Shown: positions 6,547 to 57,300 of the stretch, piece after piece
How the letters are laid out: each line of letters begins with the position of its first letter
Position numbering within the stretch: position 1 is the stretch's first letter
Assembly: GCA_016938695.1 (NCBI GenBank)
Contig: JAFGUC010000024.1
Span: 186,001-250,000 of the forward strand
Direction of reading: 5' to 3'
Source of the DNA: Candidatus Woesearchaeota archaeon
GTDB taxonomy: Archaea > Nanobdellota > Nanobdellia > Woesearchaeales > JAFGUC01
DNA: 64,000 nt
Program-made: the position numbers and the translations under genes
Notes under the pieces: model-generated
Databases searched by the model: none
Told to the model about the DNA's origin: nothing
The model's input: the letters and a program-made list of their open reading frames with translations, nothing else

Positions 6547-7800
6547 TTAAAAAAATCCACTAAATAAAACACTCATAAGTTTTGATGAACCTAGATATAT
6601 CAAAAATGAGATTATGATTAAAATTGGTATGTTTTTTAATCCATCCCTGATATTTCCATTTTTAATAATACTTGTAATAAATCCTGAAAATGTCGCCGTC
6701 ATTCCTAGTACAGTCATTGCAAATATTTTGAAATCCTCAAGCCTAACTGAATCTCCACTAATTGAAAATGTTGAACTTTGCATGCTACTTAAATCTAGAC
6801 TTCCAATTAAGCCAGTTACAATGATAATCAACTGGTTTGCTAATCCAAACATAAATGGTGCTGCCCCAATAGATGCAAACATAATAAAAATTACATAAGT
6901 CATGACATTTGCTGCCATCTCTTTTTTCATAATTTTTGTATCGATGATATCAACCGTAATTTTATCAAGAAGTTTTGCTAAAGGACCTCCAGCATCAATA
7001 CCTTCAATGATCAAGTTGATAGTTCGTCTAAGAAGTATTGAATCATACTTATCTGCAAATTCTTTCAATGCAATGTTAAGATTTGTTCCAGTAAGAGATT
7101 TTTTTGCAACAACTTCCATCTCCTTAGATAAAACTCCAAACTGAGGCCTAATTGCTAACCATAACGATTGGTCAATTGGCATACCTGCACCAATGTTTGC
7201 AGCAACCAATTGTAAATACTCTGGTAAAACTTCTTCAACTGATTTTTTTCTATTATAAATTTTGACATCAATAACAATAAAGAACAATAGCAAGAAGACA
7301 AAATAGTGTAAAATTATTCCAAGAGTTAATAACGCAAACGTATCCATTATTAGTTTTACTATTGCTGCGCCATGTGTTATGTAATTAAATACTAAGAAAA
7401 TTGTTTCAATAATAACAAAGACAACAGAAACTTGGATTATGATTTTTTGAATATCTTTTAATCGAGAATCAAGTCCTGCTTTTTCAATCATCTCCTCAAA
7501 GAATTTTTTTCTTTGAGCTTTAGTCATTTTTTGTTTAACTTCTTTTTTGACTAATTTACGAATATCCTTTTCATCTCTAAGAGACTTTATTTTTTGTCGT
7601 TTTTCTTTTTTCTTTTTATCTAATTCTTCTTTTTTCTTGTCCTGTTCTAATTTATGTTCTACAACAGAAAGCCTATCTTTTGAGAATATCTTTTTAATTT
7701 TAGTAAAAATAGTAGTTTTAGGTTCATGAGTTTCTTGAGGCTCAACTTTAGTTTCAGCAATTTTTTTCTTTTTTTGTTTAGGTCTTATTTTAATTTTCAT
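6547..7800 (-). CDS. Type II/IV secretion platform membrane protein (T2SSF/TadC-like), second copy
   Basis: This is an inner-membrane platform protein on which the secretion ATPase drives pilus assembly. The first 100 residues are highly charged (Lys/Glu) and probably a cytoplasmic coiled coil. Hydrophobic segments follow at about 119-140, 147-177, 300-322, 357-378 and 391-407. The cytoplasmic T2SSF helical domain with ANIGAGMP and EGIDAGGPL lies between segments two and three. It ends a run of three machinery genes and begins one base after the upstream platform gene ends. Two different platform genes in tandem resemble the TadB/TadC arrangement rather than the single FlaJ of archaella. Confidence 0.82.
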   Translation of the reverse strand: MKIKIRPKQKKKKIAETKVEPQETHEPKTTIFTKIKKIFSKDRLSVVEHKLEQDKKKEELDKKKKEKRQKIKSLRDEKDIRKLVKKEVKQKMTKAQRKKFFEEMIEKAGLDSRLKDIQKIIIQVSVVFVIIETIFLVFNYITHGAAIVKLIMDTFALLTLGIILHYFVFLLLFFIVIDVKIYNRKKSVEEVLPEYLQLVAANIGAGMPIDQSLWLAIRPQFGVLSKEMEVVAKKSLTGTNLNIALKEFADKYDSILLRRTINLIIEGIDAGGPLAKLLDKITVDIIDTKIMKKEMAANVMTYVIFIMFASIGAAPFMFGLANQLIIIVTGLIGSLDLSSMQSSTFSISGDSVRLEDFKIFAMTVLGMTATFSGFITSIIKNGNIRDGLKNIPILIIISFLIYLGSSKLMSVLFSGFF

Positions 7801-7801
7801 T

Positions 7802-8620
7802 TTATAATTCTACAGCTGGCCTTGAACTTTTTATCATAGATAAAAACATGAATTGTACAAAACATAAAAATAATGCAATAGTCATTAAAAGAGGCAACCT
7901 CATCTGAAATCCCATAAAACTAGACAGTACAATAAACATTGTAATTCCAATAGATGGAACAATTACTGCAATCATCATGTAAAACATTGCAAGAGGATTT
8001 AATTTTCTTCCATATTCCATTACTGCAATTTTTTGTTCCTGAACAATTTGATTTATTACAGTATCTAAAGAATGTTTAAGGTTTGAACCAGTTCTAATTG
8101 AGTTAAGAATTTGCCATAAAAATTTTCTCATGTTTTTTGCAGGAGTGTTCATTATTGCTTCATTCATTGCATCTTCTAATGTTGTTCCCATGTCAACCTT
8201 TGCTAAAATATCATCAAATACTTTTCCAACCTTTGGATAGTTAGCACTGATATTCTCCATTGCTTTAAACAAAGTAATTCCGCTTTCAATTTCGATAACA
8301 AGATATCGTCCTGCAAAAACAATTTCTTTATTTATTTCCCTTTCAATTTTTAGGACTTTAACGTCTGGTAATTTAAGCATATATGAAAATAAAAATAAGA
8401 ATATAATTGGAAATCCAATTGCAATTATTTTTATTTTAAGAAAAATGTCTAAACTTGAAAAAAATAAAAAGAATATTATCATCAAGCCAAATGTAAGATA
8501 TGCAGTTGCAACAGCAGTTCTTTTGATAAATTCATCTGCTTTAAGATCCATTCCTGCCTGCCTAAGTTTAAGTTCAAGCCATTTTTTCTTATTTCCGAAC
8601 AGCTTGTATGTTAGGCTCAT
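7802..8620 (-). CDS. Type II/IV secretion platform membrane protein (T2SSF/TadB-like), first copy
   Basis: The protein (272 aa) has hydrophobic helices at about 35-56, 63-82, 209-232 and 240-262, with a T2SSF cytoplasmic domain at 98-205 containing IESGITLFKAMENIS and the later RTGSNLKHSLD. This is the platform subunit of type IV pilus-like machines. Its ATG lies inside the end of the ATPase gene (32-base overlap), so translation is probably coupled. A GGAGGAG sequence lies 13 bases upstream, far for a ribosome site. With the neighbouring 417-aa homologue it would form a heteromeric platform, which is inference from gene pairing. Confidence 0.82.
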   Translation of the reverse strand: MSLTYKLFGNKKKWLELKLRQAGMDLKADEFIKRTAVATAYLTFGLMIIFFLFFSSLDIFLKIKIIAIGFPIIFLFLFSYMLKLPDVKVLKIEREINKEIVFAGRYLVIEIESGITLFKAMENISANYPKVGKVFDDILAKVDMGTTLEDAMNEAIMNTPAKNMRKFLWQILNSIRTGSNLKHSLDTVINQIVQEQKIAVMEYGRKLNPLAMFYMMIAVIVPSIGITMFIVLSSFMGFQMRLPLLMTIALFLCFVQFMFLSMIKSSRPAVEL

Positions 8621-10256
8621 CTTGAGTTTTCGACTCCTCCGCAGCTTTTTTAATCTCTAAATCTATATTTTTCGGATCAAAGAATAATTTATTACTATGA
8701 ACATTTTTCATTAGTTCATCAGTATTAGTATAATACTCCGCCATAACTCTTCCCACGCCGTCAACAGAATAAATTTTGTTTTTTACAAGATATCTCAAGA
8801 CATCTTGTTTCTCTTTCATCATTTTATTTAGTTGAGTTAAACTACTTCCAGTGTACAATTCTAATGTATGGAAAAGACGTTTTGATTTGTATTTATTAGA
8901 TAATATATCTCGTTTCGCATCGTACTGCATAAGGACATTAGCATCTCCCTCATCATCAAGTTCTGCTAATTGAAATGTTCTTCTAAGTCCTGTTCGTCTG
9001 TTTCTAAATTGTATGATCATTAATGAAATTGCGTTAACCATTGTTTTTGGAACTTCAATTGGTTTGTTTGTAAGACGTTTTATTGCTTCTTCAGCATTGT
9101 TTGCGTGAAACGTAGCATAACACGAGTGACCTGTGTGAATAGCTTCAAATAATGTTTCAGCTTCTCTTTTTCGTCTTACTTCTCCAACAAGTATTCGGTC
9201 AGGCCTTTGTCGCAATGCATTAACCAATAAATCTTCCATACTAATTTCTCCCTTGCCTTCTGCATTAGGAGTTCTTGTAGTCATAGGAACCCAATGTAAA
9301 AATTTAGGAAGTTTAATTTCTCTAGTATCTTCAATAGAAATTATTCTTTGATTAGGTGGGAAAAAATTTGCAAGAACATTTAATGCACTTGTTTTACCAG
9401 ACGCAGTTCCACCAGCAATCAAAGCAGACAATTCATAATGCATTGATAACCAGATCAATGAAGCAGATTCTAAACTCATTGTTTTAGATTCAATAAATTT
9501 TGTAATTGTCCAAGGGTCTCTTGAGAATTTACGAAGTGTAATAGTATTTCCTCTTGATGAAATAGGACTAATTGTAGCGTTTGCCCTGTCTCCTGCATTA
9601 ATGTGCGCATCTAAAAGTGGTTCTAATACACTAAGTTGTCGTCCAACTTTTCTTCCAATCATAGTTGCATAATGTTTGATTTGTTCTTCATCTGTAACTG
9701 TAATATCTGTTTTAAGCCAACCGTGACTTTTGTGGTACACCCAAACAGGTTCATAACTTCCGTTAATTGCAATTTCTTCTAACGATGCGTCATTCATAAG
9801 AATCTCAATAGAACCCATACCAAGACTTTCTTGGACTAAGTATGTATTCAAGAAATTCTTATCAACTGCTTCAATATCTGGGAAGTATTTATCAAGTAAA
9901 ATTGAAATTGTTGCTTGAAATTGTGCAGAAACAACACTGCTTCTTTTTGCATCTTGAATATCGACAATACCTAAGTTTACTTGTTTAATTAACTCTTTTC
10001 TGATATTCTCTAGTACTGCTGCAGTAGTTTGACTAATTTTAGAAATCTTAACAGAATAAATAGGAACGAATTCGCCTTTTTTACGTTCAATAGTTATTCG
10101 AACAGGAATCTCATTAGAAGTAAAACTATAATCATCAATTAAGTCAGAATTTTTAGAAATAGTCTCTTTTTTTGAAACATGACTTTTCTTAACTACTTTA
10201 TGAGAAACAACTTTAGACTTCCTAGTACTACTTGCACCTCTTTTTTTTGTGACCAT
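8589..10256 (-). CDS. Type II/IV secretion system ATPase (FlaI/TadA/PilB family)
   Basis: This hexameric ATPase powers pilin polymerisation from the cytoplasmic face. Walker A is GGTASGKT at 282-289, the Asp box IEDTREI is near 308-314, Walker B is DRILVGEV at 353-360, and the His box HSCYATFHA is at 377-385. The N-terminal 35 residues are Lys/Ser-rich and likely disordered; residues 140-240 hold the usual N-terminal domain motifs such as GSIEILMND. At 555 aa it fits FlaI/TadA-like ATPases. It is upstream of two platform genes and 11 bases after the winged-helix coiled-coil gene. Whether it drives extension or secretion cannot be told; no second ATPase for retraction is visible. Confidence 0.93.
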   Translation of the reverse strand: MVTKKRGASSTRKSKVVSHKVVKKSHVSKKETISKNSDLIDDYSFTSNEIPVRITIERKKGEFVPIYSVKISKISQTTAAVLENIRKELIKQVNLGIVDIQDAKRSSVVSAQFQATISILLDKYFPDIEAVDKNFLNTYLVQESLGMGSIEILMNDASLEEIAINGSYEPVWVYHKSHGWLKTDITVTDEEQIKHYATMIGRKVGRQLSVLEPLLDAHINAGDRANATISPISSRGNTITLRKFSRDPWTITKFIESKTMSLESASLIWLSMHYELSALIAGGTASGKTSALNVLANFFPPNQRIISIEDTREIKLPKFLHWVPMTTRTPNAEGKGEISMEDLLVNALRQRPDRILVGEVRRKREAETLFEAIHTGHSCYATFHANNAEEAIKRLTNKPIEVPKTMVNAISLMIIQFRNRRTGLRRTFQLAELDDEGDANVLMQYDAKRDILSNKYKSKRLFHTLELYTGSSLTQLNKMMKEKQDVLRYLVKNKIYSVDGVGRVMAEYYTNTDELMKNVHSNKLFFDPKNIDLEIKKAAEESKTQDEPNIQAVRK

Positions 10257-10267
10257 GTTTTATTCCC

Positions 10268-11392
10268 CTATTTAATAATTTGAAACAATTCTTTTAAATC
10301 TTCTTGATATTTAGATTTCTTCTTAGTTAATCTGTTGAACTCTTTTTCAATAGAAGAAATGTTTGATTCGCTTTTCGAACCAGATGCAATCTTAAATCCA
10401 ATTGCTTTTTTCTTAAGAATCTTTAACTCATTTTCTAAATCATTATGTTCTTTTTCAATAAGTGTCAATTTTTCTTGGATAGAATTTTTTTTATCAAACA
10501 AACTATTCAATTTATTTATACTTTCAGAATTTTTGATATCCTTTGTTTTTGTTGAAATCGTTGACTTGATATTATTTTGAAGATCGGATATCTTTCCCTC
10601 TTTAGTCTTGCTTTTCTGAATAGTACTTTCAACAGAATCTCTTTTTTTGAGAATATGTTTTTTAATAGACTCTGCTTGCTTTTTCAATCCAAGTAGTTCA
10701 TTTCTGTTGATTTCTAAACGTTTATTTTCAGAAACAATCTTGTCAGAAGATTCATTAACTGTTTTTATTATTGCGTCAAGTTTTTTCTGAAGACTTGTTT
10801 GAAGTTCAAGTAAACTATCTGTCTCTTGTTTTTCTTTGTCAATCTCAGATTCTTTTTGATTGATTTGTTTTATTATCAATGAATACTTACTTCTTTCATC
10901 TTCAATTCTGTTATTAGTATCATTAAGGAAATTCTCGAATTGACTTTGTTGAGAAACCATTTCTTTATCGATTTCGTGTTTCAATTTGTGATAATTTTCT
11001 AACTTAGATATTTTGGTCTTTACCTTATCTAAATCATCAGAAATCTCTTTTTTGATTGTATGAAATTCTTCGTGAAGTTTTTTCAGACCATCATTTTCAG
11101 TATCAAGTGTCGCTAAAGCGGTATCAATTTTTCGAACAAATGCGTCTTTTTGATTAAGAAATTCTCGCTTTTTTCCAACAACATCTTTGTTAGAAAGCGT
11201 TTTTAATGAGATTGTGCTATCAACTAACCCATATTCTATGTTAACAAGATTTTCCTCATCTAGCATCTCAGCCCATTCTAATACAACTGGCTTAGAAACA
11301 CCAAGCTCTTTAGAAGCTTTTTTAAGAGAAATTTTACCTCTTTTTCTAACAAGATTTACAAGTTTATCTACACCTGTCTCAATGTCACCCAT
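10268..11392 (-). CDS. Winged-helix N-terminus with long coiled coil, pilus-locus protein
   Basis: Residues 8-65 look like a winged helix-turn-helix: a GKISLKKASKELGVSKPVVL recognition region followed by a short wing (LVNIEYGLV). Residues about 75-370 are almost continuous charged heptad sequence with few prolines, a long coiled coil. There is no membrane segment. I do not recognise a named family. Position directly before the secretion ATPase, with an 11-base gap, suggests regulation or scaffolding of the pilus machine. DNA binding by the first domain is inference; some such domains bind protein. A solitary TATA-like TATTTATATAAG lies just upstream of its ATG, so it may begin its own transcript. 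Confidence 0.65.
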   Translation of the reverse strand: MGDIETGVDKLVNLVRKRGKISLKKASKELGVSKPVVLEWAEMLDEENLVNIEYGLVDSTISLKTLSNKDVVGKKREFLNQKDAFVRKIDTALATLDTENDGLKKLHEEFHTIKKEISDDLDKVKTKISKLENYHKLKHEIDKEMVSQQSQFENFLNDTNNRIEDERSKYSLIIKQINQKESEIDKEKQETDSLLELQTSLQKKLDAIIKTVNESSDKIVSENKRLEINRNELLGLKKQAESIKKHILKKRDSVESTIQKSKTKEGKISDLQNNIKSTISTKTKDIKNSESINKLNSLFDKKNSIQEKLTLIEKEHNDLENELKILKKKAIGFKIASGSKSESNISSIEKEFNRLTKKKSKYQEDLKELFQIIK

Positions 11393-11456
11393 AATGTTAT
11401 TTTGGTATATTTATTTATATAAGTTTCTACTTAGCTCAAGCTTTGTAAGTCTGGAT

Positions 11457-12821
11457 TTATATCCTTTCTAGCTTGGATAACAGCTTACTGGGGCTATTTA
11501 CAATTGAAAACGTCTTAAGTAGCCTTTTTGGATTTAAGTAGAACAAAAAATAGCCGATTATTTTTAGAAATTCCAAAGTAGAATTTGATAATTTCGATGG
11601 ATTGTTTATTGAATGCTTAATATAGTTGTAATTTTCACATTTTTGCTTCTGAAGTGGATACTGTTGAGCAATTTGAGTTCCAGGCAAACAAGTCAATATT
11701 GAAATTCTCATGAAATCTAGATTTGATGAACTTGCCTTTACTAAAGTTCTTAATGTGTCAAGAACTCCCTCGTTTGGAAATCCAATCATTATAAATGCTA
11801 AAGAATTGATTTTCGCCTTTTTTATTAAATCAATTGTTGGGTTGATTTTATTTTCTTGTGTGTCCTTCTGAATTAAATTCAATGTTTTTTGATTATATGT
11901 TTCAATTCCCAATCGTATCTCAACACATCCAGATTTTTTCATGATTTTTAATGTGTCTAAGTCAACAGAATTTACTCTTGTATTGCATCCCCATCTTATG
12001 TTAAGGTCTCTAATTCTGATTTCATTACAAAAATCAATAACTCGTTTTTTATTCAAAGTAAAAGTATCATCGTGGAAAAAGAAGTAATTCATATTATACT
12101 TATTTTTTAATTCCTGCATTTTCTCTACAATGTCTTTAATTGAGTGATATCTTACTTTAGATCCAAACATTTCATTAACAATAGGTTGACAAAAAGTGCA
12201 TCTAAAAGGACATCCCCTAGAAGTCATTAACGAAACTCCTCTTACTTTTCCAAAATACTCAAAATAATACCATTTTTTAATATATTTCTCAACATTGATG
12301 AATGAAAAATCAGGCAATTTAACTTCTTCTAAATTAATGAATTCTGGTTTTGTAGGAGTCTTAAAAAATCCATTCTCAGTTTTAATTATTAGATTTGGAA
12401 TCTTTTTAAGTTTTGAAATATCATTAATATTTTGAAGATATCTAGTAAATGGAATCTCACCTTCTGAAATAGTAATTACGTCTGGATTAAGATATTCGAG
12501 TTGTATTGCTGAGCTAACTGTAGTCGGTCCTCCAAGAATAATTTTTGTTGCAGTATTATTACTTCTAATTATACTGATATATTTTTTAACTAAATTTAAT
12601 TGGACAATTGTCGAATAAATTCCAACAACATCAGGTTTAAATTTTTGAAGTTTTTTATTTAAAAATTTGATATTTTTATCAAATATTTGTACTTTTGAAT
12701 TTTTGATTTTTTCAGAGACATAAGTTGCAAGATAAACCGGTCCTAGCGGCACATCAATATGGTCAAATTCCGAACCAGGAACAATAAGAAGTACTTTTAA
12801 TTCGCCTTTATTTGCATACAT
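11457..12821 (-). CDS. B12-binding-domain radical SAM protein
   Basis: The N-terminal 150 residues form a Rossmann-like cobalamin-binding-type domain (VLLIVPG, PLGPVYLATYV, PDVVGIYS, IILGGPT, DVITISEGE). The radical SAM core follows, with the cluster motif RGCPFRCTFC at about 209-218 and later RLGIET and IMIGFPNE strands. This layout is found in methyltransferases and cyclases acting on unreactive carbons of lipids, sugars or cofactors. The C-terminal 80 residues are hydrophobic/basic and may touch membrane. It sits inside the pilus locus between pilin-like genes and machinery, suggesting a lipid- or pilin-modifying role, but its 40-64-base gaps leave independence possible. Substrate unknown. 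Confidence 0.8.
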   Translation of the reverse strand: MYANKGELKVLLIVPGSEFDHIDVPLGPVYLATYVSEKIKNSKVQIFDKNIKFLNKKLQKFKPDVVGIYSTIVQLNLVKKYISIIRSNNTATKIILGGPTTVSSAIQLEYLNPDVITISEGEIPFTRYLQNINDISKLKKIPNLIIKTENGFFKTPTKPEFINLEEVKLPDFSFINVEKYIKKWYYFEYFGKVRGVSLMTSRGCPFRCTFCQPIVNEMFGSKVRYHSIKDIVEKMQELKNKYNMNYFFFHDDTFTLNKKRVIDFCNEIRIRDLNIRWGCNTRVNSVDLDTLKIMKKSGCVEIRLGIETYNQKTLNLIQKDTQENKINPTIDLIKKAKINSLAFIMIGFPNEGVLDTLRTLVKASSSNLDFMRISILTCLPGTQIAQQYPLQKQKCENYNYIKHSINNPSKLSNSTLEFLKIIGYFLFYLNPKRLLKTFSIVNSPSKLLSKLERI

Positions 12822-12860
12822 TCAAGGAGATTATTGCTGTTATTTTATAATTTTTATTGT

Positions 12861-13811
12861 TTATTTCTTAGTTAAACCCAATTTTATGATATTATTGTTA
12901 TCTAATCTAAACCAAGATAACATATCTGTAACATCAACAACCTCAAACGAAGGTTGACTATTGGTCCAATAAATGTGATCAGAACAACTTCTATTATATA
13001 CAAACTTGGAATCAAATTCATCAATATTGACAAAACTCAAGATTCCATTTTCATTAGCACTCATATTTCCAAAAATTCTATTCAAATAACTTGGTGATTC
13101 ATTATCTGAAAAATATTCAACATTATCAATTGCATTTAATAATCTAGTATAATTTGTACCATTGACTAATTGACTAAGCTCATAATCTGATTTTTTAATA
13201 GTTCCAATAAACGTTCCATTGGTAAAAATATTATATGTTGGGTCTTCAAATTCTAAAATTCCAATACTTGCAACTGCAGTATAATTAAACTTAAAGATAG
13301 ACGTATTTAGTTCATCATAAACTTCAAAGTGCGCAGTTGCTTCAAAAATAATATTCCATGGGTCAGTTTGATATTCTTTGATTTCTAAAAAAGTAATATT
13401 TGATTTAATCCTAAAGTCATCACTCAAAACATATATTGCAGTTCTCCAATCATTAAGATGATCTTTTGCGGTAATATTTATTGTTTCAGAATTAATTGTT
13501 CCATTAATTATTGCGGTGGTAAATGCAGTATTATTTACAAAATTTCCCTCTCTAGTTATGTATTCGTTAACACCTAGAATTGCTCTATATCCTGCAATGT
13601 AAAGAGCTCGATTAAAATCTTTAGTAATATCCTCAATAAACTTATTAATTGAATCAATTCGTCCATAGTCAGACTTACCTTCTTCTAAAATATTAGTTCG
13701 ATACGTTATTTTATAATTAAATAAAACTAAGACAATTAATGCAAATACCATTATGGAAAAGAACATACCTTTTTTGTTGCCCAATATTGTTCGTCTCATT
13801 TTTCTTTCCAT
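12861..13811 (-). CDS. Pilin-like surface protein, pilus operon
   Basis: This 316-aa protein has a basic N-terminus (RKMRRTILGNKKG), a single hydrophobic helix at about 16-32, and an extracellular Asn-rich region with many NxT/S sites. The KKG before the helix resembles a prepilin cleavage site, but Glu at +5 is missing. The body seems beta-rich and matches no family I can name. It overlaps the end of the 1186-aa vWA gene by 16 bases, so they are coupled and probably act together, for example as minor pilins or assembly initiators. The first ATG at 13811 lies within the upstream gene; a second in-frame ATG four codons on is also possible. Confidence 0.65.
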   Translation of the reverse strand: MERKMRRTILGNKKGMFFSIMVFALIVLVLFNYKITYRTNILEEGKSDYGRIDSINKFIEDITKDFNRALYIAGYRAILGVNEYITREGNFVNNTAFTTAIINGTINSETINITAKDHLNDWRTAIYVLSDDFRIKSNITFLEIKEYQTDPWNIIFEATAHFEVYDELNTSIFKFNYTAVASIGILEFEDPTYNIFTNGTFIGTIKKSDYELSQLVNGTNYTRLLNAIDNVEYFSDNESPSYLNRIFGNMSANENGILSFVNIDEFDSKFVYNRSCSDHIYWTNSQPSFEVVDVTDMLSWFRLDNNNIIKLGLTKK

Positions 13812-16800
13812 ATATTCATCTCAATTATTGATGGCCCCCACATATATGGGACTTTTGGAATACTCATTAAATATATCTCAAAATCATTTTCGTTGAATTT
13901 GACAAAAACTCTTCCATCTTTATCAAAGTCAAGTTTTGATAATAAATTATAAACTGCAACATCAATTGTATCACTTGAATTAAATGATTTACTTGAATTA
14001 GAATATTCACAAGTTTTACTTCCTGAATATGAACTTGGAATACTAAGTTGTGCTGTTGAAATGTCTTCAAACTCAATAGTCCAATTACATCCTTCATTGA
14101 ATTCTAATACATCTGTGTATCCAGTAGACGCATCAATAGAAAGCGTATAAATTATACTATTATTATTAGAATAAAAAGTATCATTCATTGAAACATCTGT
14201 ACTTGAGATATTAATTGTGTTAGTTTGTGTTAACAATTGAGTTGGAATTGAAACAATAAATGGGTCTCCAAGATTGGTAAAATTAACACCATATTCAGAA
14301 ATATTATATACTGCTATTCCATTAACAATTACTTCTTTAGTCCAATGTTCTGAGGAATATGATGTAACTTTAGCATCTAAAATTTTGACATTTGGTGGAA
14401 TATTTATTATTGGATTTGAGGAATTTATTCTTTCAATAAATGTCGCAGTAATCGTTCCATATTCATTATATGTTTTTGGTTGAGATTTTATAGTAATTGA
14501 AGAATTACCATACAATACTGAATTTGTAAAATTACCAATTATTTCAAAGTTCTGTGTCTCAGCAATAACCATTTCTTTTAACATGTCTTCAGCAATTGTT
14601 TTGTAGATTTCTTGCAATCCAGTAACGTTATTGCTTACAAAGAAATGACTAGAATTATCACAATCAGCTATGCTTTGTAATACAGTTGTATCTGCATCAT
14701 ATCCAAATGCAACAGAGTATATATCAATATTATAATTTCTGTGTGCCAAACATGCAAATTGTATTGCTTGATTTGCAGCATCAGAATCACTACAATCCCA
14801 CGAAGAATCAACGGCTTGATAACAATAATTTGCCTGTCCATCACTCATAACAAGCATTGCTTTTTTTCGTTGGGTATCAATTTCAGTAAGCAGTAATTCA
14901 AACTTAGCATCACTTGTATCATCATTATTTACCTTGACTGCAATAGTATTATAACCTGCTTTCAAAACATCATAATCTCTTATCGCAATATTATCAATTT
15001 GAATATTGTCAGATTGTTCTCTATGTGTAACTTCTGTTCTGAATCTAATTGTGATTGCATTATTTAAATTATAATCGCTAAGTTCAATTTTTATTCTTTT
15101 ATAGTCTTCATATGAACTATCATAAAAATTATAATGATTATTGTTATTATATCCTCTATAAACTGAATTGTGCCAAGTTCCATCATATATGTCAACAAAA
15201 AGTTCATCAGTACTTTCTGTATCTTCATAAGCAACATAAAATTCTAAAAACGGAGATACTGTCAAACTTAAATCAAAAGACCTTTGGAACCAGGCATAAT
15301 TTGTTGCATAATCATCACCAAATAATTGAATATTATAATTTCCTTGATATGGATCATTATCAACTTGAATAACAGTGCCATCATTTACAGAATCAACAGT
15401 CCATCCTGATAAAGTTCCATCTTCAAAACCATCAAAAAAAATTCTTCTAGCAATATCTTCTTCAATATTCCAATACGTTGCATCATGTTCATAAGTATCA
15501 TTAATTATTAATTGTCCATTAATAAACACTTGGGCATTGTCGTCTGAAAAAACATAAACTTTTGGTAAAAAAACATCGCTTGAATTTTTAAAGAAAGTTT
15601 TTCTAAAATAATAATTTCCGCCGTTATTAGGTAAAGTTGTGTTTAAATCAGTAGTCATTGTTTCAAAACCAATTGGTGTAATTCCAGTATTCCAACTACT
15701 GTCGTTAAATGATTCTTCATACCAATAACCATTGTTATATGTAGGTTCTCCTGATGGGAAACCGTATTCATATTTCCAAGTTGAAGATGTATTAATTAGT
15801 GATTTAGATTCTGCTAACAATTCAATTGCTTTCATAATTCCACAAGAAATACAAGTACTTCCACTTGCAAAATATGTATCGACCTCACTTTTTAAGTCAG
15901 TTATGTTAGTAGTTAAAGAAGTATAATCATCAATTCTTTGTTCATAACTTGAAAGTCCAACCCTATTTCCTTCGATGCCATAAAGCATATTATCAATAAA
16001 ATCTTTGTTGATACATTTTGCAACACTAATTCTTTTAGATGATACTAATTCTAAATTAGGATCAGTACATACTCTATTAATTCCTGAATTATGAGAATCA
16101 AATCTCCAATCCATGCTTCCAGAAACATCAGTTACTAAAATAGCATCACCATTGCCATATTTTTTAGTATTTCCTCTGTTAGTAAAATTTTTAGTACTGA
16201 ATCTTATTGGGACCGTTTTATTTTCAATTTCAGAAATATTAACAATTGAAAAAAACGTAGCATTATCTAAAGTAATTGTTTGCGTAGTTTCACTTCCATT
16301 ACTTTCAAAAACAAGTTTATCACCTATTGTGAAAAAACTACTATAATTATTAAAAAAACTAAATGCCAAATTAATTTCATTTATTTTTTCAGGAAATGAA
16401 ATAGAAGAAAATATGTTAATAACACCGCTAACCATTGGAAGGTAATATTTTGTTTCATTAAATGGCTCTTCATACATTCTTTTTTCAAAGTATTTTATGT
16501 GGAAGAAACCTCCTCCAATGTATGACAAATTAATATCTTCATTTTCAAAAACAATTGATATCTCGTTATCTGATTCCGATAAAACATAATTACTACAATC
16601 ACTCAAATCATATTTTTTTATAGTCCTATTTTCTATAGGTGGAAAAAATAAACCCGCAGGAAATTCCGTTGTGTTACAAAAATTTCCATTAATATTTATC
16701 TCAAATTTTGTTCCAATATCTGCTTCAAGAAAAATATTTTCAATTGAAAATATATCCGGAATGTAAATTGTTCTAGTAATATTACCTTGTCCAATAAATC

Positions 16801-17356
16801 CGCCAAAATATGCAAAAACAGAACTACTTTTATTCCCGATAGATTTTAGCAATGATTTAGATGTTATTCCTTCAATAGGTTTTTCCATTTCAATTCCAGA
16901 AATCATTCGTCTATTTGTAACAAGTCTGTCCGTGTTGTTGATTACTGTCGTATTATATATAGTAATAAATGTATCATTATCCTCAATATTTATTGCAAAT
17001 TCCATATCTGAATCTAAAATATCTAATGTGATGTTCTTTGCAATCTCTGAGGCAAGATCTTTTTTCCCTTGAATCCACAACTTTCCAATAACTTCAAGAA
17101 TAGTAGAATCATAATCAGTAATTTCCTCTGATTTTATTTTTTCAATTATTTTAATATTATTTATATCAGTTATTTTAGTATTAGATAAAATGTTGATAAT
17201 ATCTTCGCTCATTTTATCTTCTGCGACTCTTGGTGGTGTAAATATGTATGTTTTGTTAATCAATAAAATTGCTCCCAGTAAAACAGTTATTGCTAATACT
17301 GCTTCAAAAGAAAAATATACACCTTTCTTATTTGTTCGTGAAGTCATTTTATTCAA
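13796..17356 (-). CDS. Giant pilin-like protein with von Willebrand A domain carrying nested insertions
   Basis: The 1186-aa protein starts with a basic stretch, NKKG, and one helix (about 14-35) like a prepilin, then a large Asn-rich extracellular part. A vWA domain starts at residue 403: MIDAS DVSGS at 410-414, probable Thr 501 and Asp 839 in VMSDG. Between the first helix after CISCG (about 502-518) and the strand at 832 lie about 300 extra residues. These look like a galactose-binding-type sandwich (about 525-632 plus 796-826, with SDDNAQVFING and AGYNTIAVKV) itself split by a second jelly-roll domain (about 638-795, FFDGFEDGTLSGW). Residues 920-1186 are beta-rich. vWA proteins at pilus tips act as adhesins (PilY1, PilC); that role here is inference. 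It overlaps both neighbours by 8 and 16 bases. Confidence 0.8.
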   Translation of the reverse strand: MNKMTSRTNKKGVYFSFEAVLAITVLLGAILLINKTYIFTPPRVAEDKMSEDIINILSNTKITDINNIKIIEKIKSEEITDYDSTILEVIGKLWIQGKKDLASEIAKNITLDILDSDMEFAINIEDNDTFITIYNTTVINNTDRLVTNRRMISGIEMEKPIEGITSKSLLKSIGNKSSSVFAYFGGFIGQGNITRTIYIPDIFSIENIFLEADIGTKFEININGNFCNTTEFPAGLFFPPIENRTIKKYDLSDCSNYVLSESDNEISIVFENEDINLSYIGGGFFHIKYFEKRMYEEPFNETKYYLPMVSGVINIFSSISFPEKINEINLAFSFFNNYSSFFTIGDKLVFESNGSETTQTITLDNATFFSIVNISEIENKTVPIRFSTKNFTNRGNTKKYGNGDAILVTDVSGSMDWRFDSHNSGINRVCTDPNLELVSSKRISVAKCINKDFIDNMLYGIEGNRVGLSSYEQRIDDYTSLTTNITDLKSEVDTYFASGSTCISCGIMKAIELLAESKSLINTSSTWKYEYGFPSGEPTYNNGYWYEESFNDSSWNTGITPIGFETMTTDLNTTLPNNGGNYYFRKTFFKNSSDVFLPKVYVFSDDNAQVFINGQLIINDTYEHDATYWNIEEDIARRIFFDGFEDGTLSGWTVDSVNDGTVIQVDNDPYQGNYNIQLFGDDYATNYAWFQRSFDLSLTVSPFLEFYVAYEDTESTDELFVDIYDGTWHNSVYRGYNNNNHYNFYDSSYEDYKRIKIELSDYNLNNAITIRFRTEVTHREQSDNIQIDNIAIRDYDVLKAGYNTIAVKVNNDDTSDAKFELLLTEIDTQRKKAMLVMSDGQANYCYQAVDSSWDCSDSDAANQAIQFACLAHRNYNIDIYSVAFGYDADTTVLQSIADCDNSSHFFVSNNVTGLQEIYKTIAEDMLKEMVIAETQNFEIIGNFTNSVLYGNSSITIKSQPKTYNEYGTITATFIERINSSNPIINIPPNVKILDAKVTSYSSEHWTKEVIVNGIAVYNISEYGVNFTNLGDPFIVSIPTQLLTQTNTINISSTDVSMNDTFYSNNNSIIYTLSIDASTGYTDVLEFNEGCNWTIEFEDISTAQLSIPSSYSGSKTCEYSNSSKSFNSSDTIDVAVYNLLSKLDFDKDGRVFVKFNENDFEIYLMSIPKVPYMWGPSIIEMNIWKEK

Positions 17357-18407
17357 AAACCTGAATTATTAATTTTACAAAATTATTATTTAATCGTGAG
17401 ATTCTAACTGTTTGTGATATTCTTTTATATTCAGTATTAGGAATTATTGTACAACTTTCAATATCTTTAGATTGTATTATTTTCTTTATTTCAGATTCAA
17501 TTTCCATTTGTTCAAAATCATTAAAATAGTACACTTCACCCAATCCATATTTTATCTTTAGTATAGTTGACCCCAAAGATCCTATCGCTAATGTATCGAT
17601 GTTGCTGACATTTGAATTAATAAGATATCTATATTCTTTTGTCGATTTATCATCAATATTTTTTAAGGCCTCATTAGAAATTGTAATTTTTTGAGTAACA
17701 TTTCCAAGGAACGTTTTATTAAAATAATTTGATGTAATTAATCCAGAATCTTCTAAATATTCAAAATTATGTTCAAATATGTCTGCATTAACAATACCCG
17801 AAATAAAAACAAAATTACCATCATATGCAAACTTTTGAATTTTTTCTAATTCCAAAACAGAAAAATCTTCTAAGTGTGGATTATCTAAAACAACAATATT
17901 CGCAGAGTCAATAGAATTGATAAAATCTGTTTTATTACTTAACTCATATTTTTCTTCAAATAATAATGTTGTTGGTCGAGAAACCCTTGAATAATATAAC
18001 AATTTTTCATCATCAATAGTGCTATTAATATTTATTCCACAATTTTTTGAAATTGATATTGCATCACCAGAATTTAAAGAAGTAATATACAATGAAATTT
18101 GTCCATTTACGCCGAGTTTATTTCTAATATAGTCGTAATTTGATTCATATAGCGAATTAAGTTTCAAAGTATCAATTTTATCATTAGCAATTATTCCTGG
18201 AATCTCAAAATTATCTGTTGTCCAATCCAACGGAATACCCGAACTCAAGATTAATTCGGAAACTTTGCTAGATGAATCGTAATTAAAAGTATTACTTTCA
18301 GAATTAATTGTAGTTGATGTATAGAATATGAACGTTAATAATCCAAAAACAAATATGGCAACTGCAACAAAAAAGTCAATATACCAAAATTGGGATTTCT
18401 TACTCAT
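17349..18407 (-). CDS. Pilin-like membrane-anchored protein, pilus operon
   Basis: A 352-aa protein with an N-terminal helix at about 9-30 (FWYIDFFVAVAIFVFGLL) after KKSQ, giving the look of a divergent prepilin with Asp rather than Glu near +5. The rest is extracellular, Asn/Ser-rich, with possible Rossmann-like alternation around 150-230 (ANIVVLDNP, NFVFISGIV), perhaps a GATase-like or vWA-like fold without recognisable catalytic residues. Only two cysteines are present, C121 and one near the end. It overlaps the upstream small pilin gene by an ATGA and the downstream vWA gene by 8 bases, so it is a fixed member of the pilin set. No family assigned. Confidence 0.65.
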   Translation of the reverse strand: MSKKSQFWYIDFFVAVAIFVFGLLTFIFYTSTTINSESNTFNYDSSSKVSELILSSGIPLDWTTDNFEIPGIIANDKIDTLKLNSLYESNYDYIRNKLGVNGQISLYITSLNSGDAISISKNCGININSTIDDEKLLYYSRVSRPTTLLFEEKYELSNKTDFINSIDSANIVVLDNPHLEDFSVLELEKIQKFAYDGNFVFISGIVNADIFEHNFEYLEDSGLITSNYFNKTFLGNVTQKITISNEALKNIDDKSTKEYRYLINSNVSNIDTLAIGSLGSTILKIKYGLGEVYYFNDFEQMEIESEIKKIIQSKDIESCTIIPNTEYKRISQTVRISRLNNNFVKLIIQVFE

Positions 18408-18793
18408 TTTGGACCAACCAAAACGACGCCGTTTTGTTTTTTGATCATATTATCTTTTGTTATTGTGCCTTCAAAATAGTTTACATTAAACACTTTAGAT
18501 TTTTGTGTGGTAAGTAATTCAACCCACGTATTATTGTAAACATTGATTGTATAATTTTCATTTAGTGATGTTTGAGGAAGTTCAAAAGTTCTAACATATC
18601 CTTCGTGTGATTCACTAGCCGTTTTGATTTCATTTTGTATTATTTGTGCAATTTTTTCAAGTTCATTATATGATTCTTCATCTGATTTAACATTAATATT
18701 ATGATAAATAACGCCCGAGAATGCAACAGAAATAAGTAGCGCAAATGATATAACCGATACAAATTCAATAGTTATTTGAGCTTTATTATTCAT
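18404..18793 (-). CDS. Class III signal peptide pilin, small
   Basis: The 129-aa protein begins MNNKA then QITIEF, a canonical archaeal prepilin site with Glu at +5, followed by a hydrophobic helix to about residue 27. The head is about 95 aa with NxT sites and ends in a hydrophobic VVLVGPK. Size and position fit a minor or structural pilin. It starts one base after the stop of the first pilin gene and its stop overlaps the next start (ATGA), showing tight coupling in the operon. Confidence 0.8.
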   Translation of the reverse strand: MNNKAQITIEFVSVISFALLISVAFSGVIYHNINVKSDEESYNELEKIAQIIQNEIKTASESHEGYVRTFELPQTSLNENYTINVYNNTWVELLTTQKSKVFNVNYFEGTITKDNMIKKQNGVVLVGPK

Positions 18794-18794
18794 T

Positions 18795-19208
18795 TTATTT
18801 GCCAGTTATTTGTATATATGTAGTTCCATTAGTTTTAGCAAGAATTTCAATTTCATGAATTCCTGGTGTTGCAAGAATTGTTCCATTAATTGGAATTTTT
18901 GAAACAAGATACAAATTATGCTCTCCAACAATGATATTAATTTCATAAGTTGAAACACTAATTGACTTTATTGAATCTGGAAAATAAACCTTGATTGTTT
19001 CCTTTGAAGGAGCACCAAGATAAAAAATGCTTTCAGCAGTATCAACAATTTTCTGGACAGAAACATGTGCTTGACTTAAAGAAATTTCATCTCTAATTGA
19101 CTCTGATTGGCCTTGATAAATTATAATTGATGGTATTGATAAGAATAATACAATTCCCATTATAATCAAATATTCAATTGCAATCTGTCCTTTAGAAATA
19201 TTAGACAC
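18795..19208 (-). CDS. Class III signal peptide pilin, first gene of pilus operon
   Basis: The 137-aa protein has SKG then QIAIEY, the QxxxE prepilin motif, and a hydrophobic helix to about residue 28. The head is beta-rich with a Gly-Thr-rich end. The only in-frame standard start is GTG at 19208, but that GTG is itself part of a GAGGTG sequence that looks like a ribosome site; a non-standard ATT start three codons later cannot be excluded. An AT-rich stretch with AAATAATATTATAAAAG on the minus strand just upstream supplies a plausible promoter, making this the first gene of a pilin-to-platform run reaching 6547. Confidence 0.78.
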   Translation of the reverse strand: MSNISKGQIAIEYLIIMGIVLFLSIPSIIIYQGQSESIRDEISLSQAHVSVQKIVDTAESIFYLGAPSKETIKVYFPDSIKSISVSTYEINIIVGEHNLYLVSKIPINGTILATPGIHEIEILAKTNGTTYIQITGK

Positions 19209-34158: not shown

Positions 34159-35199
34159 ATGATTAAAGAAGAAATAAAGAAAATCGTACTGCAAAAAAAT
34201 TTATTCAAAGATGTAATAGGCCAAGATGAGGTAAAACATCAACTAAAATCTGGATTAATGTCTGGTAGAAATATAATTATCGTAGGTCCTCCAGGAGCAG
34301 GTAAAACAACTCTTGTAAAAAGTTTAGCTGAATCTCTTCCATCATTAAAAGTCAACGATTGTGGTTTCAATTGCTTAGAAGATGCACCAGTATGTCCACA
34401 ATGTCTAGAGAATAAAAAAAATAACAAAGAAACTAAAACAGTTGAATTAACTGGTGAAGATAGATTTGTTAGAATTCAAGGTTCTCCTGATTTAACTGTT
34501 GAAGATCTAATTGGAGATATTGATCCACTTAAAGCAATGGAATTTGGTCCATTGTCTGTAGAAGCATTTACTCCCGGAAAAATATTCAAAGCAAACAATG
34601 GTATATTATTTTTTGATGAGATAAATAGATGTAATGAAAAACTTCAAAATGCGATGTTGCAATTATTACAAGAGCATACTGTAACGATTGGTTCTTATTC
34701 ATTTGATTTTGATGCAGATTTCTTATTCATTGCAACAATGAATCCAAAAGATGTAAACACTGAAAGATTAAGTGATGTTTTTGTAGATAGGTTTGATTTC
34801 ATCTACATGGATTACCCTGAAACATTAGAAAATGAAATAAAGATTGTAAAATCCGAAAACAACTTTTTGGGTTCTGAAGTAATATTTCAAGAGCATATGT
34901 TAAGCGCAACTTTAAAGTTTGTTAGGACTCTAAGAAAAAGTAAAGACTTAGAAAAAGTTCCTTCAGTTAGAGCTTCAATAGGACTTTACCAAAGAGCAAT
35001 CGCAAATGCATTATTAAGAAATGCAAAAGAAGTATCATTACAAGACATACTTAGGTCAATGACTTCTGTTTTAGCACATCGAATATCATTAAAACCAAGT
35101 CTAAGGCATGAATTAAGTACTGAAGATTTTGTAAAAAAAAGTTTCGATTCTTTTACTGAAAGGGAAGGACTTTCAACAGATCTAGGTGAGTCTCCCTGA
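34159..35199 (+). CDS. MoxR-type AAA+ ATPase with Cys-rich insert
   Basis: MoxR ATPases act with vWA proteins in chaperone-like or metal-insertion tasks. Walker A is GPPGAGKT at 43-50, Walker B LFFDE at 150-154, sensor 1 ATMNP near 192-196. Between Walker A and the next strand, C68, C72, C79 and C82 form a CxxxC...CxxC cluster absent from ordinary MoxR proteins and likely to bind zinc or an Fe-S cluster; similar inserts occur in ChlI-like archaeal proteins. The end overlaps the vWA gene by 14 bases. Substrate unknown; no chelatase H subunit is nearby. Confidence 0.85.
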   Translation: MIKEEIKKIVLQKNLFKDVIGQDEVKHQLKSGLMSGRNIIIVGPPGAGKTTLVKSLAESLPSLKVNDCGFNCLEDAPVCPQCLENKKNNKETKTVELTGEDRFVRIQGSPDLTVEDLIGDIDPLKAMEFGPLSVEAFTPGKIFKANNGILFFDEINRCNEKLQNAMLQLLQEHTVTIGSYSFDFDADFLFIATMNPKDVNTERLSDVFVDRFDFIYMDYPETLENEIKIVKSENNFLGSEVIFQEHMLSATLKFVRTLRKSKDLEKVPSVRASIGLYQRAIANALLRNAKEVSLQDILRSMTSVLAHRISLKPSLRHELSTEDFVKKSFDSFTEREGLSTDLGESP

Positions 35200-36367
35200 A
35201 GGGCCCGAGTCTGACGAAGTAAAGCAAGACGTAGAAGAAGTAGATGGTTCTCTTGCAGGTACTGATGATAATGATAAAATCATGCACAGTATTTTACCTG
35301 TAAATAAAGATATTGAAGAAGGAAATATGATTAATGAGGCACTTAGTAAAGGTCTTTCTAGTTTCAAAGCAAATCTATTGTATGAGAACCTTGTAAATAA
35401 TTTTAGGTCTGCAAAAGAATTGTATGGTGAAACAATAATTCGTCAATTAACTGGTTACGGTGCAGACGAACTCGAACGAAATCTAAAAATTCCAGAATTT
35501 CAAAAAGAAGTAAAAGAAAAAATAAAAAGAAGTATCAAGCAATTGACTCAAGATAATGTTTTAACAATGTCAGGTGAATTAACAAAAGAATCATTAAGAT
35601 TGGCGAAGTTATCTATGTTAGTAAAATTAGATGAATTTCGTTCAAAGTCCGTTTTTGGTGAAGCAACAAAAGATCAAAAAGATATTTACGGTGAAAACGA
35701 CGAGATTATGATTTATAGAAAAGGAATGCCATATAAAGATATTGCTGTAAAGTCTTCTGTAAAAGTTTCATTAAGACGAGGTCATACAAAAATGACTCCC
35801 GCAGATCTTCGAACCTTCTCAAAAAAAGCAAAGAAGAAAACAAACATAATTTATGCTATTGACGCATCAGGTTCTATGAAAGGTAAAAAGTTAAAAGTTT
35901 CAAAAGAAGCAGGCGTTAGCTTAATATATCATGCTTTAGAGAATAAAGACGAAGTTGGTTTAGTTGTTTTTAGTAAAGAAGTTATGGCTGCAGAGGGTTT
36001 AACTGATAAGTTTGATGTTTTAGTTGATAAAATTGTAGACATCAAAGCAAGTGGTAAAACTGATTTTGTTCTAGCACTGCAAAAATCACACGAATTACTT
36101 CACAACAAAAATGGAAATAAACATCTTGTAATAATAACTGATGCATTACCAACAGTGGGTGATGAACCCGAAAAAGAATCTTTATCTGAAATTGCAAAAC
36201 TAAAATCTGAAGGAATTAGTGTTTCAATTATTGGAATTGCTGTTGATGCAGTAGGTTTAGAATTTGGTAAACGTGCAATTGAAATTAGTGATGGGAAGTT
36301 TTATGTTGTGAAAAATGTTGAAGATTTAAGTTATATTGTTTTAGAAGATTATTATGAATTTTCTTAA
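35186..36367 (+). CDS. vWA-domain protein, MoxR partner (ChlD/CoxE-like)
   Basis: The acidic N-terminus is followed by a helical region (50-200) and a C-terminal vWA domain with a complete MIDAS: DASGS at 226-230, T292 in KTD, D319 in TDA. No signal peptide, so it works in the cytoplasm with the upstream ATPase, as in BchI/BchD and MoxR/vWA pairs. The first start, GTG at 35186, lies within the ATPase gene (14-base overlap) after AGGTGAG; later ATGs would remove part of the acidic region, so the exact start is open. It converges with the next gene with a 4-base overlap. Confidence 0.85.
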   Translation: MSLPEGPESDEVKQDVEEVDGSLAGTDDNDKIMHSILPVNKDIEEGNMINEALSKGLSSFKANLLYENLVNNFRSAKELYGETIIRQLTGYGADELERNLKIPEFQKEVKEKIKRSIKQLTQDNVLTMSGELTKESLRLAKLSMLVKLDEFRSKSVFGEATKDQKDIYGENDEIMIYRKGMPYKDIAVKSSVKVSLRRGHTKMTPADLRTFSKKAKKKTNIIYAIDASGSMKGKKLKVSKEAGVSLIYHALENKDEVGLVVFSKEVMAAEGLTDKFDVLVDKIVDIKASGKTDFVLALQKSHELLHNKNGNKHLVIITDALPTVGDEPEKESLSEIAKLKSEGISVSIIGIAVDAVGLEFGKRAIEISDGKFYVVKNVEDLSYIVLEDYYEFS

Positions 36368-54365: not shown

Positions 54366-57300
54366 GTGAATTTATTCTGTACTGCTAAGCCTAGTCAGCA
54401 AGCATTTACTAGACTTCTTTTGAGTTTTATTTCAATTGTGTTGTTATTTTCAACTTTCAATGTTGTAGCATACCATGATCCTATCGAAGATTCAATTGAA
54501 CACGTTTATAATTTCTCACAAGACGTCAAGAATGATTTTGATAATTTTGTATCAACCCACGACAATCTCTCATTAAATATTTACGAAGATAAAGAATTAC
54601 TTGAAATTTTAGATTCATATTTTGGAAAAGATGTTGTTGTTTCTGTAATTGACTTAACCTCTCAAACCTTACTATATCATCCTACTCCTGATTATGGTCG
54701 TAGAGTTTTCGATGTTATGGCGCAAGACCCTCTGATGAAAGAGTATTGTGATAGTCTAAAATCTAATTCTATATCTAACTTTCCAACATTAATTGACATG
54801 TATGATTTTGAACGAAACGCGAAAGTATTACGCATTACCAACATAATAAAAACCAATAGAACTCTTGAAGGGCATGCAATTGGAATTTGTGTGAGTGATG
54901 TATATGACGAGTTTCTTCACGACGATTTTTCAATGGAATTAAAATTAGAGAGTTTCTTAAAAATTAAATCTTATTTTTTGAAAAAAGATGCTGAATTTTT
55001 ATTAAGCAAATATCCGGGCATGTCTTTTTCAGAAATAATCGCTAAAGAAAATTTAGAGTCTCATTTTACTTCAAAAATTGGAATTACTGGTTATACTTTC
55101 GTTCTCGATGATAATCTTGTACTGGCACATCCAAACTCTGATTTTATCAATAACGAGATTTATGATTTAGATGAATATAAATTATTTTCTAACCAATTAA
55201 ACGATATATTGCAAACAAATAAATCCGAATTTTTTATAAGTTATACATGGAAATTTGGAATGATTCCAAAAACAAAATTCGCATATGGACATATTTTAAA
55301 GTTGCCTAATTCTTCTGAGAAATTAATTCTCTGCGCATCAGGAAATGCGGATGAAGTTGATTCAATTGTTTCAGCAAATGTTGCAGACTTAAAAACAAAC
55401 TCTGTCAAGTTTAAAATTTTATCAGTTGCTCAACAGGTATCAGATTATATTTCTGAAAATCCCTCAAAAACCCTTCAAGATTTACTAGACGATAATAAAT
55501 TTAGACAAATTGCAATTAAACAAATAGGTATGTCTGGATTTACAGGGATTGCTGATTCAGAAACAAGAACAGTTAGGCTATCTAAAGATATCGTGTATGA
55601 GGGTGTTGGAATTGATATCTTTAGTTCCAATAATTTAGAACTAGTTTCATTAATTGATAGTGCTGATACTTTTGGTGAAAGTTCAGGAACTATTTTTTGG
55701 TCGGACATTAGAACAGGATTTTCTAAAAATTTATACCTATATATAAAAAAACTAGACGTCAAAACTGCAGATGGATACACTCTAGGTGTATTTGGAAGAA
55801 TTGATTTTGATGAACTGTCTGAAGTTAACTTACAATCAAATGATTTATTTGTGAATCCCAATTTTCTTCGTGAAATAGCATTAGAAAAAGTTCAAGAGCT
55901 AAATTACCAAATTAATTTATACAAACAAAAAATAAAATCAATAGCTCGAAACAATGTTCTTACATCAAATTTACTAGCAATTGAAAAAGATTCAATACTA
56001 TTAAATGATTCAGAAAATCTAAAAATATTTCCAAATAATGAAACTTTATATTCTGAGTTAAAGAATTATTTGTCAGGAGTTAGTTCTGAATTTAATGATG
56101 AGGTCACAATACGTCTTCATCATAATTCAGGAATTGGTATATTTGGTTTAAATAACGGTGTTGAAATAACTAAGGAGTGTAAAAATCATAATTTTTGGTT
56201 TAATAAGGTTTTGAATAATTTCAAACAGGAAAATACCGATGTTTTTTTAACAACAGGGTTTTCAAATTATACCAAAAAACCAAGTATACGATTTTCATAT
56301 CCAGTAAAATATCGAGATTCTGTCCTTGGAATTTTCACAATGAATTTTAATATTGTAGATTTCTTTAACAATATATTCCCAAGAAATTCAAATGAATTTA
56401 GATACTTAATTGTTGAAACGAACTTTGAAGATTCTAAAGGAAATAGTGTTGGCGATTTTTCGATTTTGTATGACTCAGATAATGCTACTAATCCAATAGA
56501 AATACAATTACAATCTAGTTCATTAAATGGAAATTCAGGAACAATAGAAATAACATATAACCGTCTTTTGACTTTGAGTTCATATAGTAAAGTTTCTTTA
56601 GATGATAATAACATATACCTTTTACTCATTCCAAAAAAAACACCATTTTCATTAGAAGATACAAACATTCGTTTTTTTAATAATTTGTTTGTAAAATTTA
56701 ATTTTTTAAAAATTGCAATAATCTTTATTGAATTTACTATATATTTATTCTTAATTTTTTCTGTTAACCAAGATGATGCAAGCAAAAAGAGTATTAGAAA
56801 TAAATTTATATGGATGTTTTCATTTGGAATACTTATAACACTTCTTGATTTCATAAGCTCATTATTTTCAAATGCAATGTTTGATCTTATTTCAAAACGC
56901 GTTACATTATTTCTAATTGTAGGAATAATATATTTTTTAATTTTAATTTTAATTAATTTTGATACTAATAAACCAAAATTTATTTCACGAATATATCGTT
57001 ATTACAAAACTTTCACTTTCTTGTTCTTATTCTCTACTTTTATATTGTGTACTTTCACAAATCTTATTTTTAAGGTACCTGACAAAACGGAATTGAGTGC
57101 AGGAAGTATGTTCTATTTTTTTGTTGGAATTATTATTCTTGTTTTGCTCTTTGTTTTATTTTATATTATTTTCAAAATATTAAAAAAAGAATTAGATAAA
57201 AGTTTCTTTGTTGCTACAGCAGGAATTTTTTTAAATTTGGTTTTGTTAACTGTAGGGCATTTATTACATTTTTCTTATAGTAATACACAAAAGATTTTTG

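Follow-up and report, generated by a model that had tools for sequence, protein, structure and literature searches.

The 64,000-nucleotide window analysed here (positions 186,001 to 250,000 of contig JAFGUC010000024.1, assembly GCA_016938695.1) comes from a Candidatus Woesearchaeota archaeon. On its minus strand, between positions 6547 and 19208, it carries a locus that probably encodes an archaeal type IV pilus shared across DPANN archaea, with a minor pilin bearing a grafted von Willebrand factor A (vWA) domain in the minor-pilin tip complex. Ten open reading frames are present in this interval, each where a preliminary description of the window had placed it. Their products are five pilin-like proteins (two small pilins, Pil137 and Pil129, and the larger Pil352, vWA protein and Pil316), an assembly ATPase, two T2SSF platform proteins, a winged-helix/coiled-coil protein and a B12-binding/radical SAM protein. 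The pilin-side genes overlap or abut (18795/18793, 18407/18404, 17356/17349, 13811/13796), as do the three machine genes (10256/8589, 8620/7802, 7800/6547), in agreement with that description. The source genome (1.5 Mb, 85 contigs, 99% complete) is that of a DPANN archaeon which groups with Woesearchaeota-type relatives; its GTDB family is sampled by this single genome. It encodes five T2SSE-type ATPases.

Pfam matches T2SSE, two T2SSF, VWA and radical SAM plus B12-binding domains among the window proteins. The ATPase belongs to the PilB/FlaI/TadA superfamily (T2SSE, E=6.6e-32) and scores 261 bits, under the equivalog cut-off, with the archaellum-type ATPase family of NCBIfam; both platform proteins exceed the T2SSF cut-off. 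Three prepilin peptidase genes (PF01478) are found in the genome, all on other contigs, and nothing found contradicts the earlier statement that the window itself holds none. Together with the prepilin signals, these matches bear out the identification of a pilus locus. In many loci the gene for the 374-residue winged-helix/coiled-coil protein keeps its place next to the ATPase; the winged helix gives weak matches only (HTH_DeoR, E=0.039).

The gene set is well above chance, because the identical order recurs in dozens of other genomes. A sample of 99 genomes from the order, searched for the ATPase (40 neighbourhoods retrieved), contains close orthologues with 58-69% identity and a second, paralogous group with roughly 42-55%. 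Close-orthologue loci with enough contig mostly keep the order small pilin, small pilin, Pil352, vWA protein, Pil316, coiled-coil protein, ATPase, platform protein, platform protein. Scanning the vWA alignment against 84,980 prokaryote species yields 94 relatives, and 79 loci were kept; the scan demands one exact peptide motif, and absence outside the matches is not proven by it. In 56 of the 60 loci with at least 4 kb upstream, the vWA gene comes after Pil352 and two or more small pilins. Pil316 lies downstream of it in 64 of the 79 loci, and an ATPase is present in 43 of the 79 as retrieved. The vWA protein and small pilins thus co-occur with ATPase and platform genes in relatives, a point on which the preliminary description had made its proposal depend.

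The 79 loci belong to DPANN-type lineages (Woesearchaeota, Aenigmatarchaeota, Micrarchaeota, Altiarchaeota, Nanoarchaeota, Jingweiarchaeum, 'Nanohalarchaeota') or other archaea, with one exception; this is a 3.5-kb contig in a Coatesbacteria metagenome-assembled genome, which is probably mis-binned. The order of the five-pilin block is conserved across DPANN phyla. Across the order, the vWA protein has a near full-length counterpart scoring above 700 bits in at least 70 of 241 species, and 182 of the 241 match the family when short forms are counted.

These short forms reveal how the vWA protein is built. They occupy the vWA gene position in paralogous loci and in loci L052 and L062, and are 162-190 residues long (227 in one locus); Pil316 is also present in these loci, and in most of them the ATPase too. 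Short homologues align with the N-terminal ~145 residues of the long form and mostly also with its last ~13 (GPxxVEVxVW). Long and short forms share both ends; therefore the module sits between the N-terminal part and the last strand. On this comparison of sequences, the vWA giant is a pilin of ~170 residues with a module of ~700-1000 residues inserted just before the last strand. It combines a pilin moiety with a domain that is not pilus-specific, and is in this respect a modular pilin in the sense used for bacteria (PMC8179133).

The inserted module consists of beta domains and a vWA domain with a metal-ion-dependent adhesion site (MIDAS). Pfam calls the vWA domain in 10 of 14 family members; in the window protein its match falls into two parts, residues ~406-518 and ~829-919. 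Among the MIDAS residues, D410 and S412 are each conserved in 51 of 53 sequences, S414 in all 53 and T501 in 49; the fifth, D839, is kept in at least 90% of a 14-sequence alignment, the only one on which it was scored, the columns there being misaligned in the second alignment (A2). Several members, including the window protein, have inserts of ~300 residues or more inside the vWA domain. In the structure model of the window protein, confidence is good in the pilin core, in the beta domains and in both halves of the vWA domain. By fold, the vWA module comes closest to the vWA domains of Mfa5, a pilus-tip protein, and of the LapA adhesin; glycosidase-type beta domains are also among the fold matches of the protein, with poor superposition. 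A profile search with the vWA family finds 4rck, Mfa5, the proximal thread matrix protein and a cell-wall-anchored surface protein. A PDB sequence search with the single protein gives chance matches only, and a plasmid search gives no match.

An adhesin role is the best reading of the vWA module, and attachment to a host cell by the predicted adhesin is plausible. The preliminary description had proposed a vWA tip adhesin like PilY1. The adhesin role stands; the structural analogy does not, as the vWA domain is inserted in a pilin. PilY1/PilC of diderm type IVa pili are likewise presumed tip adhesins, some of them with vWA, but they are non-pilins with a C-terminal beta-propeller. Pfam finds no PilY1 C-terminal domain in the vWA protein, and homology to PilY1 is rejected.

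N-glycosylation sequons are above shuffled expectation in the vWA protein (35 vs 19) and in Pil316 (12 vs 4.8). vWA pilin genes occur in tandem, as two or three copies, in loci L137, L108, L113 and L116. In the last three, a Pil316 copy follows each tandem vWA gene, which suggests duplicated tip cassettes.

Among the other pilins, Pfam matches the class III signal peptide in the 137-residue protein and DUF7266 in the 129-residue protein just under the curated cut-offs, and among relatives of Pil137 the class III signal is matched (E<=0.1) in 15 of 30. Most small pilins show the signal pattern with Q at +1 and an acidic residue at +5. Pil352 is modular in a similar manner to the vWA protein: its homologues are either cores of ~155-217 residues (most loci) or forms of roughly 300-500 residues which carry an insert ahead of the final beta-hairpin; DUF7287 matches the core in 15 of 55 members. 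In long homologues the insert matches Pfam DUF4350, DUF7408 or the GH42 trimerisation domain (GH42M), which we take to be GATase1-like families. The Pil352 structure model agrees in topology with a GATase1-like insert; fold matches (GH42, 3rht) are weak, and nothing is found in the Pil352 fold search at E<=0.001.

Counted from the predicted cleavage site, the acidic residue is at +6 in 56 of 63 Pil352 proteins and in 80 of 84 vWA proteins; it is absent from 55 of 56 Pil316 proteins. The tip of type 4 filaments is described as a complex capped by a subunit without Glu5 (PMC10191384); Pil316 would therefore be placed at the cap.

A candidate for the shaft is a further pilin in the window. The preliminary count of five pilin-like genes is correct for 6547-19208, and misses a PilA-like pilin at 2454-2921, in the window but outside that interval. 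In 30 of 74 related loci a PilA-like pilin is encoded downstream of the platform genes, at a distance of at most 3 kb, and the one in the window is likely the major pilin. A PDB search with it gives chance matches only. The next gene on the same strand (967-2391), directly after it, encodes 474 residues without a Pfam match.

Assembly can be pictured as follows. Prepilins would be cleaved by a prepilin peptidase whose gene lies on another contig, and the ATPase and the two T2SSF proteins would then assemble the pilins in the membrane, with the minor-pilin tip complex starting filament growth. Pil316 would cap the tip, with Pil352 and the vWA pilin beneath it, and the two small Glu5 pilins would form the connection to the shaft, built of PilA-like pilins such as that at 2454-2921. 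Inserted before the last pilin strand, the module would be displayed at the filament tip, where it would probably grip a surface or a partner cell; its ligand may lie on the latter.

Several findings weigh against such a pilus. MIDAS residues are lost in a few family members; residues 519-828, the insert in the window's vWA domain, have very low confidence in the model; the acid positions are counted from a cleavage site that is itself predicted; and roughly half of the five-pilin blocks lack an ATPase in the retrieved DNA, so that the pairing of block and ATPase is only statistical. This last observation would also suit a pseudopilus of the kind found in type II secretion systems (T2SS), in which the five pilins form a short piston while the vWA and GATase1-like modules handle exported cargo or sense load; T2SS pseudopili likewise consist of five pilin-like proteins with a Glu5-less cap. 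Such a secretion device is unlikely, since PilA-like pilins follow the platform genes in many loci, the vWA module resembles the vWA domains of pilus tips and adhesins, and the locus maps show no evident conservation of any cargo gene alongside the block. It is very unlikely that the vWA protein is instead a membrane-anchored surface adhesin or mechanosensor, held at the pilus base and outside the filament by a TadG-like anchor; the module is grafted into a pilin that exists module-less at the same gene position, and TadG-type pilins themselves have been placed at the tip by recent work (PMC12075869).

The radical SAM enzyme, which the preliminary description had counted as a member of the locus, is probably not part of the system. 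Its gene is found in none of the 79 related loci and in none of the order neighbourhoods retrieved; it is consequently a newcomer, and on its distribution it is rejected as a pilus component. Relatives occur in eight other genomes at no more than 39% identity, and where a vWA gene is listed for these genomes it is on a different contig. The gene is co-directional with its neighbours and only 39 and 64 bases from them, as might be expected if the enzyme modified a pilin or a lipid-linked pilus glycan in this lineage; given its absence from every other retrieved pilus locus and the distant, unlinked relatives, this is highly improbable.

Among known systems, the Streptococcus sanguinis type IV pilus is a close parallel (PMC8179133, PMC9934059). 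Among its modular minor pilins PilB and PilC, a small pilin likewise bears a grafted vWA domain with a MIDAS, and further modular and non-modular minor pilins are in the predicted tip complex. In contrast to the archaeal protein, whose module is inserted before the last strands, the streptococcal pilins belong to a bacterial family, and the vWA module is joined at the C-terminus via a short loop. The survey of modular pilins covers bacteria, and its text makes no mention of archaea (PMC8179133, PMC9934059). Tad/Kil pili, with TadE/TadF/TadG tips (PMC12075869), share a related ATPase class, two T2SSF platform genes, and small and large minor pilins with variable exposed domains. They are bacterial, however, and no Pfam TadE or TadG match is found in the five pilin families; the only homology to Tad pilins detected by Pfam is a single weak Flp_Fap match (E=0.056) in one relative.

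Haloarchaeal plasmid loci (Halobaculum, Haloferax mediterranei) resemble the PilB4-type system (PMC4858521) and contain an ATPase, a platform gene and then five pilin-like genes, DUF7287-DUF7288-DUF7261-like-DUF7266-DUF7289. The composition is like that of the DPANN locus, but the DUF7288 member has no vWA insert, the gene order differs, and the ATPase and platform protein are much larger. In profile comparisons, Pil352 with DUF7287 (93%) and Pil129 with DUF7266 (76%) match over most of their length, while the vWA protein core matches DUF7288 over 63% (the N-terminal part only), Pil137 matches DUF7289 over 28%, and Pil316 matches none. The signal is mostly N-terminal and collapses once the first 45 residues are removed, so any one-to-one homology of the five pilins is tentative. 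Equating Pil316 with the haloarchaeal DUF7261-like gene was rejected: the two agree in position, size and lack of the acid only, and the profile comparison lends it no support. In a Salinigranum marinum plasmid locus (L182), with no ATPase nearby, the DUF7266 protein contains PKD and, below threshold, a malectin-like domain, and there is an additional DUF7289 protein with a vWA domain; therefore haloarchaea also graft modules, at other subunits.

The ATPase tree gives some indication of the history of the module. In the deep branches formed by other phyla (Micrarchaeota, Altiarchaeota, Aenigmatarchaeota), any linked vWA gene is of the long form, and short forms occur twice, once in the paralogue clade and once in the L052/L062 clade. 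The tree is rooted at its midpoint, so the direction of change is inferred; the most parsimonious history starts from an old long form, with the module lost at least twice. A more far-reaching reading, which is doubtful, is that the vWA pilin was the ancestral DPANN tip adhesin for partner or host archaea, kept in Micrarchaeota, Altiarchaeota, Aenigmatarchaeota and Woesearchaeota-type lineages; inserts in the vWA loops would set host specificity, and the module-less paralogous pilus would be a sister machine that lost the adhesin.

Other parts of the window and one further locus contain genes of separate interest. A MoxR-type AAA ATPase is followed by a cytosolic-type vWA protein (393 residues) at 34159-36367; MoxR-vWA pairing is a classic arrangement, and this vWA domain has distant similarity only to that of the pilus. 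A 1752-residue histidine kinase (54366-59624) carries C-terminal PAS domains; its N-terminal region is very long and gives no Pfam match at E<=0.001. Locus L176 (G000:C7:113000-132000) encodes a run of some twelve short membrane proteins whose N-termini are class-III-like (for example KKAQSMSLN, NKKGD) and large proteins of 825-1490 residues, with no obvious ATPase in view; it is possibly a different pilin-like set.

Table 1. Features of the pilus locus and the candidate major pilin (window coordinates; a slash marks the predicted cleavage site).
Feature	Position	Strand	Remarks
Small pilin 1 (Pil137), 137 aa	18795..19208	-	Class III signal KG/QIAIEYL, Glu at +5; weakly DUF7289-like
Small pilin 2 (Pil129), 129 aa	18404..18793	-	KA/QITIEF, Glu at +5; DUF7266-like
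Pil352, modular minor pilin	17349..18407	-	DUF7287-like core, acidic residue at +6, terminal beta-hairpin
Pil352 optional insert, residues ~135-315	17463..18005	-	GATase1-like alpha/beta domain; missing from short homologues in alignment
vWA modular pilin, 1186 aa	13796..17356	-	Start TTG at 17356 or in-frame ATG at 17347
vWA protein, N-terminal pilin part, ~145-150 aa	16907..17356	-	Acidic residue at +6; matches short homologues
vWA protein, C-terminal pilin strands	13799..13882	-	WGPxxxEVxVW-type motif, common to short homologues
vWA domain, residues ~403-518 and ~829-929	14570..16150	-	MIDAS residues D410, S412, S414, T501, D839
Lineage-specific insert splitting the vWA domain, ~310 aa	14873-15802	-	Residues 519-828
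Pil316, minor pilin without acidic residue near cleavage site	12861..13811	-	Predicted tip cap; sequon-enriched
B12-binding/radical SAM protein	11457..12821	-	Probably outside the system; no counterpart in related loci
Winged-helix-like/coiled-coil cytoplasmic protein, 374 aa	10268..11392	-	Conserved ATPase accessory
Assembly ATPase, PilB/FlaI/TadA superfamily	8589..10256	-	T2SSE match
Platform protein 1, T2SSF, 272 aa	7802..8620	-	Pfam
Platform protein 2, T2SSF, 417 aa	6547..7800	-	Pfam
PilA-like pilin, 155 aa	2454..2921	-	NKKA/QAAMEFLMTYGWAILVV; ATG at 2921; candidate major pilin

A 2016 census classes archaeal vWA proteins among putative regulators, and points to nanoarchaeal ATPases for which no cognate pilins had been identified; the literature searched (mostly non-subscription papers) yielded no account of a pilin with a grafted vWA domain in archaea. 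The conserved five-pilin block beside DPANN ATPases is a concrete candidate set of cognate pilins. Grafting of adhesins onto pilins is documented in bacteria, and the DPANN-wide forms with and without the module point to the same in archaea. Named proteins are now available for asking how small archaea attach to other cells.
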